64,000 bases of DNA from Selenomonas ruminantium subsp. ruminantium ATCC 12561. Lineage in GTDB: Bacteria; Bacillota; Negativicutes; Selenomonadales; Selenomonadaceae. Made by a program: the position numbers and the translations under genes. Positions 41,662-44,595 of the stretch are shown piece after piece. The notes below the pieces were generated by a model. That model made no database searches. It was not told the origin of the DNA and worked only from the letters and a program-made list of their open reading frames with translations. Positions within the stretch are counted from its first letter, which is position 1. Every line of letters starts with the position of its first letter. The stretch covers positions 7,528-71,527 of the forward strand of contig NZ_AUJE01000010.1 of NCBI RefSeq assembly GCF_000424065.1, read 5' to 3'.

Positions 41662-43283
41662 GATGGTTGGCACGACGACGAAAAAAAATAACCGCAAAAC
41701 AGAAAATGCGCATCCGTAATAGCGGATATTCCGAAGGCGGTGCGTCCCAGACAAGCAATATATTGAAAGCCTGGAATCCCATGAAGTTATCCAGTAAAAG
41801 TGATATTGATTGGAACCTGAAAACTTTGCGGAACCGGGCGGCCGATGAGGCCATCAATACGCCAATAGGCGCAGCGGCCATCTATTCAAGTGCTACGCAT
41901 GCCGTGGGAACAGGGTTGACGTTGTTCCCACGGCCGAATGCTAAACTGCTGGGGCTGTCTCCCGAGAAGGCGAAGGAGTGGACCCGCAAAGCGCGGGCGG
42001 AATTCCAATTATGGGCGGGGTCGAAGGATTGCGACATATATCGCCGCAACAACTTTTACGACCTTCAGCATATCGCGTATCTGTCCTATCTGACAGATGG
42101 CGATGCCTTCGCGTTATTTCGCCGTAAGATGCCTACGCAGATGGCACCGTATTCTTTGCGGCTGCAGTTATTAGAGGCGAATCGGGTGAGTAACCCGCTT
42201 GACTCGGGGCTGACGAATTACACCAGCGTCGAAATGAATGCGCCAACGCCGGGCCATCGAATTATATCCGGCGTTGAAGTTGACGCAGATGGTACCATAG
42301 ACGGCTACTGGGTGTCAAATAAGGTGCCGTATGATTACAACGATATCGACGGTGTAACGCAGTGGATTAAGGTCAAAGCGTCCGGTGAGATTACAGGGAT
42401 GCCTAACATTCTGCAGATTTGCCATGACACCCGCGCCGATCAATATCGCGGCGTACCTTACCTTGCGCCGGTAATTGAGACACTGAAACAAACTTCACGC
42501 TATACAACGGCAGAACTGGCTAGCGCTATCGTGAAGTCATTCTTTTCGTTGTTCTTTACCGAGACGCCCTCTGGCAGTACGTTGAATGATGTGCTGGGAA
42601 ATTCGTTTGAGAATGCCCCCGGCGCTCCTGTGGTGGATGTTGGCGATTATGCGCTGGGTCCCGGCACATTGAATGCCTTGCCTAGTGGTGTGGACGTGAA
42701 AAGTGTGGATGCCAGCAACGCGCAGTCAACCTTTGGGATTTTCATGGAGGCCCTGCTGAAACAGGTGGGCGCGGCATTAGGTCAGCCCTATGAAGTGTTG
42801 ATGAAATCGTTCACCAGTTCCTACAGTGCATCGCGGGCGGCCCTGCTGCAGGCTTGGGATGAGTACAAGCAACGGCGGATATGGTTCGCCCGAGATTTCT
42901 GCCAGCCGGTATACGAAGTATGGCTCGCGGAAGCAGTAGCGCTGGGGCGAATTGACGCTCCCGGATTCTTTGATGACCCTGTTATCCGAAAAGCATGGTG
43001 CAATGCGGAATGGTTCGGCCCGACCATGAGTATCCTTGACCCGGTGAAGGATGTAAAAGGTTCCCATTTGAGAGTACAGTATGGGTTGTCTACTCGTGAA
43101 CGTGAGGCGGCCGAAATGACCGGCTCCGATTATGAGGAGAACATAGAACAGTTAGCTTACGAGCAGTCGCTTATGTCTGCCGCGGGGATAACTGATAATG
43201 GCGCCGCGTCAGCGATACCTACGGAAGGAGGTGATAATGATGAAGAAGTTCTGGCAAATAAAGAACGAGGCCGAAGCGGATAA
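41658..43283 (+). CDS. Portal protein (lambda family)
   Basis: Protein of 541 residues, lambda gpB type: RNRAADEAINTPIGAAAIYS near the start and ADQYRGVPYLAPVIETLKQ in the crown. Twelve copies form the DNA gate of the head. It begins with GTG at 41658 overlapping the previous stop; a TTG at 41667 is an alternative. The C-terminus overlaps the protease start. Confidence 0.92.
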   Translation: MRWLARRRKKITAKQKMRIRNSGYSEGGASQTSNILKAWNPMKLSSKSDIDWNLKTLRNRAADEAINTPIGAAAIYSSATHAVGTGLTLFPRPNAKLLGLSPEKAKEWTRKARAEFQLWAGSKDCDIYRRNNFYDLQHIAYLSYLTDGDAFALFRRKMPTQMAPYSLRLQLLEANRVSNPLDSGLTNYTSVEMNAPTPGHRIISGVEVDADGTIDGYWVSNKVPYDYNDIDGVTQWIKVKASGEITGMPNILQICHDTRADQYRGVPYLAPVIETLKQTSRYTTAELASAIVKSFFSLFFTETPSGSTLNDVLGNSFENAPGAPVVDVGDYALGPGTLNALPSGVDVKSVDASNAQSTFGIFMEALLKQVGAALGQPYEVLMKSFTSSYSASRAALLQAWDEYKQRRIWFARDFCQPVYEVWLAEAVALGRIDAPGFFDDPVIRKAWCNAEWFGPTMSILDPVKDVKGSHLRVQYGLSTREREAAEMTGSDYEENIEQLAYEQSLMSAAGITDNGAASAIPTEGGDNDEEVLANKERGRSG

Positions 43284-44028
43284 TGCAGAAATGTTTATCT
43301 ATGGGGAAATCGCGGATACGACTTGGTGGGGCGATGAAGTCACTCCCAAGCAGTTCGCCGATGACCTGAAAGCCTTGAATGGTAAGGACCTTACTGTACG
43401 AGTTAATAGCCCGGGCGGGGATGTATTCGCCGCGCAAGCTATCTATAATCAGTTAAAGTCTTACGCTGGACATGTCACGATGCGTATTGATGGCCTGGCG
43501 GCCAGTGCTGCCACCATTATCACTTGTGCAGGTGATACGGTCATAATGCCTGACAATGCCCTTTTTATGATTCACAATCCAAAAGGGGCGATGTGTGGTT
43601 ACTACGGTGCCAAAGACCTAAGCGATTATGCGAAACAGCTCGACACGGTACGACAGACTATCGTCAACGTCTATAAAAAGCGTTGCGCGAATCTGTCCGA
43701 CACGCAAATCAAGCATAAGATGGACGATGAAACGTGGATGACGGCTCAGGAAGCCCTCGATTATGGTTTTGTTGACCAGCTTGATTCGGATACCGAAATC
43801 GTAAACAGCCTGAAAGATGGCATGCTGATTATGAACTCAGTATCCTGCGATTTGTCCCGATTCAAACGGGGGAAAGAAGTAGCGGCAATTATGAACAGAA
43901 TTTCTGGTCATAAGGGCAAAAAAAGCCCTCAAAGTGCCGAAAATGGTAACCTAAAATCCCGGAGATTTTTTACCCTACGCCAAGAACTCAATAATACCAA
44001 GGCTTCACGGCGTTTTTCTGTAGGGTAA
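43237..44028 (+). CDS. Head maturation protease, ClpP-like, truncated by an insertion
   Basis: The ClpP-type serine protease domain (about 1-200) is intact. It has NSPGGDV, the nucleophilic Ser in GLAASAATII, His in MIHNP, and the C-terminal TAQEALDYGFVDQL. After residue 237 (SAENG) the natural gene continued into a scaffold domain, but a 185-bp element at 43949-44133 interrupts it and adds 27 foreign residues before a stop. AAGGAGG lies before two adjacent ATGs (43237 and 43240). In lambda the protease and scaffold are made from one nested gene in the same way. Confidence 0.9.
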   Translation: MMKKFWQIKNEAEADNAEMFIYGEIADTTWWGDEVTPKQFADDLKALNGKDLTVRVNSPGGDVFAAQAIYNQLKSYAGHVTMRIDGLAASAATIITCAGDTVIMPDNALFMIHNPKGAMCGYYGAKDLSDYAKQLDTVRQTIVNVYKKRCANLSDTQIKHKMDDETWMTAQEALDYGFVDQLDSDTEIVNSLKDGMLIMNSVSCDLSRFKRGKEVAAIMNRISGHKGKKSPQSAENGNLKSRRFFTLRQELNNTKASRRFSVG

Positions 44029-44133
44029 TAAAACTTAACCTACAAAGCCCTAAAATCGTACTTGAAATACTGTAACCCCTTATAAATACTAGGTTTAAGA
44101 ATTGTAGGTTAAATTTTGAGCGGGATTTTAGGT
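43949..44133. mobile_element. 185-bp MITE-like element
   Basis: Perfect 13-bp terminal inverted repeats ACCTAAAATCCCG (43949-43961) and CGGGATTTTAGGT (44121-44133), with a GGTA duplication on each side (43945-43948 and 44134-44137). Inside are further inverted repeats such as ACCCTAC/GTAGGGT and TTAACCTACAA/TTGTAGGTTAA, so the whole folds on itself. There is no transposase. Ends and target duplication are directly visible; the helper transposase family is unknown. Confidence 0.85.
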
Positions 44134-44157
44134 GGTAAAGAAAGTGAGGAAAATCCT

Positions 44158-44595
44158 ATGGAAAATAAGGATTTGCTTGAAAAAATCAAGAACCTCCTTG
44201 GCATGGAATCTGAACAGGCACCGGCAGAGCCGCAGGCTCTCGGTGGTGTGCAGGATGAAGCCAAGGACCCTGTTGTGGCAGAACGTGAACGCCTGCTGGC
44301 GCTTGACGCTCTCGATGACCACAAAAATGGCGTTGTCACGAAGATGGTAAACGCCGCAAAAACAAATGGCTCTACTGTTGAACAGGTTAAGCCGTTTATC
44401 GATGCTCTTCGCGAGGATGGAGCACAGCAGGATGAACAGACCAAAGTTCTGGATGCTATTAAAAATCTGATTAAAGATGAAATGGAATCCGGTGCGCAGC
44501 AGGTCAGCCCGTCCGCCCCAAAGGCTACGTCCGCCGATAAAAAGCAGGCCGCCATCGATGAAGTTGTTAATCTGGCGAATCAGAAAAGAGGTTGA
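44158..44595 (+). CDS. Scaffold domain of the head protease gene (Nu3-like)
   Basis: Helical, acidic protein of 145 residues (LLEKIKNLLGMESEQ, then ERERLLALDALDDHKNGVV) like the C-terminal scaffold part of ClpP-type head proteases. The frame stays open back through 44116 and is the same frame as the protease. A GTGAGGA lies 7 bases before the ATG at 44158, so the scaffold can be made alone, as lambda Nu3 is. The insertion upstream therefore removes only the fused form. Confidence 0.78.
   Translation: MENKDLLEKIKNLLGMESEQAPAEPQALGGVQDEAKDPVVAERERLLALDALDDHKNGVVTKMVNAAKTNGSTVEQVKPFIDALREDGAQQDEQTKVLDAIKNLIKDEMESGAQQVSPSAPKATSADKKQAAIDEVVNLANQKRG

Follow-up and report, generated by a model that had tools for sequence, protein, structure and literature searches.

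A MITE with IS1634-family ends in the fused head protease-scaffold gene of a Selenomonas prophage

The fused head protease-scaffold gene of a prophage was found to be interrupted by an element of 183 bp, bounded by perfect terminal inverted repeats of 12 bp. The window, i.e. the whole stretch of DNA that was analysed, comprises 64 kb (G000:C9:7528-71527) of a host genome (G000) of 3.39 Mb in 67 contigs. Judged from its sequence, the element at 43950-44132 is a MITE. In our reading, which we hold with high confidence, a DDE transposase of the IS1634 family would have acted in trans on this non-autonomous element, and the MITE would have inserted into the protease-scaffold gene, duplicating 6 bp of its target.

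The initial annotation had described a 185-bp element with perfect 13-bp ends and a GGTA duplication. The feature itself was found as described, whereas its boundaries had to be moved: the 13-bp repeat is the 12-bp end to which, at either side, a single base belonging to the duplication had been added, and the letters GGTA form the centre of the 6-bp duplication TGGTAA (Table 1). The nested inverted repeats reported inside the element are present. In the 64-kb window, 23 inverted-repeat 12-mer pairs with a span of 80-2500 bp were counted, longer repeats being entered once per shift, and the element ends were the sole pair with a 6-bp direct repeat immediately outside. Twenty first-order Markov windows produced 195 inverted 12-mer pairs, none of them with a 6-bp direct repeat outside.

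In keeping with a MITE, the element is short, flanked by terminal inverted repeats and, at 183 bp, too short to encode a transposase. The window copy contains at least two stops in each of the six frames, and its longest open stretch is 47 residues, in agreement with the lack of coding capacity noted initially. Stops in every frame were found in five of the six distinct copies, and a reading as a coding element was rejected on these grounds. The copy in G167 is the sole one of the six with a frame open through the whole element; this frame, on the minus strand (L079:2321-2593), has 61 residues within the element and 90 aa with the flanks.

Table 1. Features at and around the insertion site (window coordinates)
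Feature	Coordinates	Strand	Evidence
Phage head maturation protease, ClpP-like	43237..44028	+	CLP_protease 4.7e-32, phrog_94 1.8e-80, NF045542 194.5 bits (cut-off 120)
Scaffold part, 145 aa from internal ATG	44158..44595	+	phrog_53 3.1e-7, profile 329-462; internal start conserved
MITE with ends of an IS1634-family element	43950..44132	+	Perfect 12-bp ends, 6-bp target duplication, second copy in the genome at 100%
Left terminal inverted repeat CCTAAAATCCCG	43950..43961	+	
Right terminal inverted repeat CGGGATTTTAGG	44121..44132	-	
Target site duplication TGGTAA, left copy	43944..43949	.	
Target site duplication TGGTAA, right copy	44133..44138	.	
30-bp left end common to the MITE and the full-length IS1634-type element of the host genome	43950..43979	+	93.3%
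29-bp right end common to the MITE and the full-length element of the host genome	44104..44132	+	93.1%

A search of the host genome, which had been proposed together with the initial annotation, revealed a second MITE copy (G000:C24:3001-3183), which is 100% identical to the window copy and has TTATAA on both sides, as well as a full-length element that shares the 12-bp ends. Because the two host copies are identical, the insertion appears to be recent. The second copy (L019) is inserted in the last part of an EcsC-family gene and cuts off the last 25 residues of the protein. Beyond the element the flank reads RDIGYAARRQFQERWLVDNEKLIIV followed by a stop, and an EcsC-family relative in G015 (55% identical) ends with RDIGYAARRSYQERWLRDNDKWIE; since this tail matches the flank, the gene at G000:C24 was once whole. 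Uninterrupted relatives thus exist for the EcsC gene as well as for the gene hit in the window and, together with the identical second copy and the full-length element, they bear out the original interpretation as a MITE.

Related copies were also present in other Selenomonadaceae, as was seen when the search was widened to related Negativicutes along the lines suggested at the outset. Five of the 22 genomes of the genus gave a match (E 0.001), two of them with full-length MITE copies. In the family search (189 genomes, E 1e-4, four candidates scored per genome) eight genomes matched, and five of these held full-length copies at seven places in total, i.e. at several unrelated sites; uninterrupted relatives are known for the two sites in the host genome. 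The class search (380 genomes, two candidates scored per genome) returned the same eight matching genomes and none outside the family. One copy (G002:C8, 96.7%) belongs to a plasmid of Selenomonas ruminantium subsp. lactilytica TAM6421, pSRC2 (94 kb), where it is intergenic according to the PLSDB gene table. Another genus of the Selenomonadaceae holds full-length copies at 86-88%, two in G165 and one each in G167 and G164. The six distinct copies form two groups by genus, with 96.7% identity within the first, 91.8-95.1% within the second and 86.3-89.1% between them. The duplication has the length typical of the parental family, being exactly 6 bp at five of the seven full-length copies and 7 bp at the G002 copy; the G164 copy is without an exact one. 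The copy number is low, with one or two full-length copies per genome; a high copy number, common among MITEs and not strictly required of them, was not seen.

Two exact-pattern scans of viral contigs and a blastn search against 50,697 phage records (E 0.01) returned no MITE copy. A scan of genome contigs with an exact pattern gave one place, taken as the full-length element of G020:C6; its silence elsewhere proves little, because it missed the pSRC2 copy although the pattern fits that copy. Two further end motifs in the host genome were rejected, as nothing is shared past their 12 bp. The exact motif at G000:C1:40282 has no inward-facing partner, and the candidate partner of the motif at G000:C48:5399 carries two mismatches and lies 1.5 kb off, inside a 603-aa frame (2.5 and 3.7 kb were looked at around the C1 and C48 motifs, respectively). 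A diverged 174-bp element with related ends and no exact duplication was observed in G010 (L031:4683-4856). It aligns to the MITE only in part, in the middle from about column 79 on, and possibly represents an older subfamily. Altogether, the copies define a Selenomonadaceae MITE family for which the host genome also holds a probable helper and whose members occupy a phage gene region, the plasmid pSRC2 and, in G164, a contig of chromosome size (2.14 Mb).

The probable helper, at G000:C14, is a 1775-bp element with the 12-bp ends of the MITE, TTATTT on both sides and a frame for a 539-aa transposase. With this protein, the IS1634 transposase model NF033559 gives 226.8 bits (cut-off 100) and DDE_Tnp_1 gives 62.5 bits (cut-off 23). 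A 98% copy in G020 has no exact duplication, and a full-length relative in G165 (65% in protein) has ATCCAA on both sides. With lengths of 1775, 1775 and 1769 bp the three full-length elements lie within the 1500-2000 bp of the IS1634 family, and the duplications at two of the three, TTATTT and ATCCAA, fit the AT-rich 5-6 bp of this family. All three carry a long near-perfect hairpin directly 5' of the transposase start (L020:4130-4184 in G000:C14, also in L032 and L082), which buries the Shine-Dalgarno site of the transposase and has TATAAT in or beside its loop. Between the G000 and G165 elements, which are 66-67% identical, the hairpin arms, compared by eye, have changed together with pairing kept. 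The hairpin resembles a device that keeps read-through transcription from yielding transposase. Such devices are known from other insertion sequences.

The ends of IS1634-family members are called poorly conserved, with a consensus C-----YT, in the accessible part of the family description (PMC2266710); C1 and T8 of this consensus agree with the full-length element, whose position 7 is A. In the transposase, a Y-x2-K-x3-E-x6-K stretch was recognized by eye, with lysine in place of the arginine of the IS4-type motif, and this arginine is present in 5 of 32 IS1634 members according to the same partial source.

The outer 30 bp on the left and 29 bp on the right are common to the MITE and the G000:C14 element at 93%, so that the MITE shares its ends with an autonomous element. 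No convincing match to the MITE interior (about positions 31-154) was found in the full-length elements, so derivation of the MITE from one of them by deletion is no more than a possibility. We infer that the G000 transposase, or a close relative of it, moved the MITE. The alternative that the MITE derives from another, unseen IS, with the IS1634-type element of the host being only a cousin, whether able to mobilise it or not, is less probable in our view, but it retains a substantial share of the likelihood. It is favoured by the limitation of the match to the outer 29-30 bp and by three MITE-carrying genomes (G002, G164, G167) in whose assemblies no transposase match at 1e-50 was found. Among the 189 family genomes, transposase matches at this threshold occurred in seven, several of them remnants or distant; one of the genomes with a transposase, G020, has no full-length MITE. 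Against the alternative of an unseen IS stand the same terminal 12 bp, the same duplication length and the joint presence of both elements in G000 and G165.

The comparison of the ends between the two genera cuts both ways. At the right end, the four second-genus MITEs match the element of their own genus at 96.6, 96.6, 96.4 and 89.7% and that of the first genus at 93.1, 93.3, 92.9 and 86.2%, i.e. three of them clearly and the fourth more weakly are closest to their own genus's element, which argues against an unseen IS as parent; the window copy is equally close to the two elements (93.1%). At the left end, however, the G167 copy and one G165 copy (G165b) share 30 bp at 93% with the element of the first genus and only 12 bp with that of their own, which speaks for another IS, and the other G165 copy (G165a) shares 29 bp at 93% with the former and 21 bp at 95% with the latter. 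As aligned, the MITE ends do not follow genus consistently.

Profile matches to a protease and to a scaffold on either side of the element confirmed its placement inside a head protease-scaffold gene, as annotated initially. The two pieces of the gene align to successive stretches of a single profile, phrog_53 (protease 1.8e-39, profile 61-311; scaffold 3.1e-7, 329-462). The protease start was set at 43237, from where the relatives align; the open-frame list begins the frame at 43198. The insertion added 189 bp, a multiple of three. Because the phage frame meets TAA TAA at 44026-44031, with two further stops inside the element, the protease as it stands (263 aa) ends with 26 foreign residues read from the element after 237 native ones, and the part matching CLP_protease (residues 48-182) is intact. 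Nine neighbour genes were scanned, among them those for terminase, portal, decoration, capsid, neck and tail sheath, and each aligned to phage families along the greater part of its length, so the stretch around the insertion is not visibly decayed. Elsewhere in the host genome a second head protease was detected (G000:C3:28603-29151, 44% identical, in an open frame of 266 aa without a stop inside the match), which is a sign of another prophage or a remnant.

A comparison with related phages lacking the element, also envisaged in the initial annotation, showed the gene uninterrupted in related phage contigs. From 24 viral loci found, 21 were read, three with partial matches (L064, L065, L068) being left out, and no interruption at the insertion site was present in any of the 21. 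The frame runs unbroken from the protease through the scaffold part to the stop in 18 of them, in two more it continues past the site up to the edge of the contig, and L069, short and distantly related, has no scaffold part that could be compared. The closest relative, L046 (88% in protein), reads GKESEENPM, letters that the window shows too when its two flanks are joined; at the DNA level, one CGGTAA in L046 takes the place of the two TGGTAA copies of the window.

The insertion point lies in the variable linker between the protease and scaffold parts, upstream of an internal ATG at 44158 that is preceded by the Shine-Dalgarno-like GTGAGGA. Since the right duplication, which ends at 44138, leaves 19 bp to this ATG, the insertion separates the protease from the scaffold with the scaffold start untouched. 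At the matching place a start codon was present in all 13 relatives examined within L046-L066 (ATG in 11, GTG in 2); of the 21, L050, L052, L054, L055, L062 and L063 were omitted because they looked close to others, and L067 and L069 as distant. The signal pairs with a 16S-tail sequence in each of these 13, the mean energy being -9.0 kcal/mol, compared with an average of -2.8 kcal/mol for 272 further ATG/GTG codons that lie in frame in these genes; the P value of 7e-9 is only a guide, because of the relatedness of the sequences and the choice of the start codons by eye. By these comparisons the target gene appears to be of the lambda C/Nu3 type, with a protease followed by an in-frame scaffold that has its own internal start.

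In phage lambda, Nu3 starts internally within the C gene, and it is through the scaffold domain that the protease enters the procapsid. In the window, one gene would have become two: the protease would be cut after residue 237 and gain its 26-residue tail, and the scaffold would still be startable at the conserved internal ATG, with the ribosome site untouched, so that free scaffold could be made from there. Head maturation is probably weakened or lost, because the protease loses the scaffold domain expected to carry it into the procapsid, while the supply of free scaffold may continue. We consider the prophage more likely to be impaired than intact.

The insertion might instead be tolerated, the nested gene having turned into two working cistrons of a fully functional prophage. 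Besides the intact CLP_protease-matching residues and the well-matched head and tail neighbour genes, the position of the cut in a variable linker, ahead of a conserved start with its own Shine-Dalgarno-like signal, would suit this reading. Nevertheless, we regard it as unlikely, given that none of the relatives is split at this place and that, by analogy to lambda, the scaffold domain is what brings the protease into the procapsid. It is slightly more doubtful still that the MITE split a nested capsid protease-scaffold gene at the only point that allows both products to survive, in a prophage still working with separate cistrons, in other words that the fission of a virion gene has been caught in the act. 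The window copy also constitutes a natural separation-of-function test, in which a head protease is cut from its scaffold domain and capsid maturation does or does not take place.

That the 183 bp serve the phage as a structured RNA or as a regulatory element, be it a three-way fold, an attenuator or a promoter, and are not a transposon is scarcely credible, as the same sequence occurs at unrelated sites with target duplications and the 21 phage relatives read have no interruption at the site. The predicted fold is stable, at -46.7 kcal/mol against a shuffle mean of -33.8 (z -3.2; 2 of 200 shuffles as good). In the alignment of the six copies, which leaves out the 174-bp element of G010, two of five covariation measures lean towards structure: the covariation score is 0.067 versus 0.055 (reached by 16 of 500 shuffles), and two cells are changed on both sides versus 0.7 (25 of 500), with slid versions scoring lower. 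This lean is weak because the structure was taken from one of the six copies and related sequences can exceed shuffles. The other three measures, however, stay at shuffle level (paired cells 90.4% vs 90.1%, pairs with two-sided change 1 vs 0.6, further pair types 9 vs 9.0), and no Rfam family comes near its gathering score, the single match listed reaching 20 bits against 90; on this basis a structured RNA was largely rejected. A promoter or terminator in the element was rejected as well, with one promoter-like site (0.6 expected) and no terminator (0.4 expected). A conserved RNA role of the MITE is at most weakly supported by the alignment.

The reading of a MITE moved by an IS1634-family transposase was compared with known systems. 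Both IS1634-derived MITEs and prophage MITEs are already published, so that the initial remark that MITEs in phage structural genes are rarely noticed is fair, but the case is not unprecedented. In the available excerpts of the open-access literature on IS1634 MITEs, Selenomonas MITEs and prophage or capsid MITEs, no report of the present element was found. In Methanosarcina, the table rows seen for ISMba11 and ISMac10 assign MITEs to IS1634-family parents (PMC3852290). As here, short elements are tied to a parent of this family; these rows give 247 and 249 (taken as length) and 23 and 15 (taken as copies), as opposed to 183 bp and one or two copies per genome in the Selenomonadaceae. The helper resembles the IS1634 family, as partly accessible in PMC2266710, in its 1775 bp, its AT-rich 6-bp duplication and its match to the IS1634 transposase model, and this likeness belongs to the helper and not to the MITE itself. 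According to the accessible part of PMC8024623, ISGka5, an IS1634-family IS of Geobacillus, moved with a 6-bp repeat, and the helper duplication is likewise 6 bp.

Among prophage MITEs, MCLas-A of Candidatus Liberibacter asiaticus has filled and empty forms, the excerpt of PMC12566600 speaking of 'the empty prophage MCLas-A'; host and element are different, and the likeness is by description, not by sequence. The 217-nt wDam-MITE-1 of the Wolbachia prophage WO is thought by its authors to have disrupted a phage gene and differs by its 24-nt ends, its 9-nt duplication and its position at a contig end, as far as the consulted portion of PMC5447182 goes. With respect to the target, lambda C/Nu3 likewise has protease and scaffold in one gene, and C and Nu3 overlap according to a reference title in the accessible text (PMC3224144, PMC8508860). 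In the window, in contrast to lambda, the insertion cuts the gene between these two parts, and its position just before the nested start is the one feature at which a specialist might stop.
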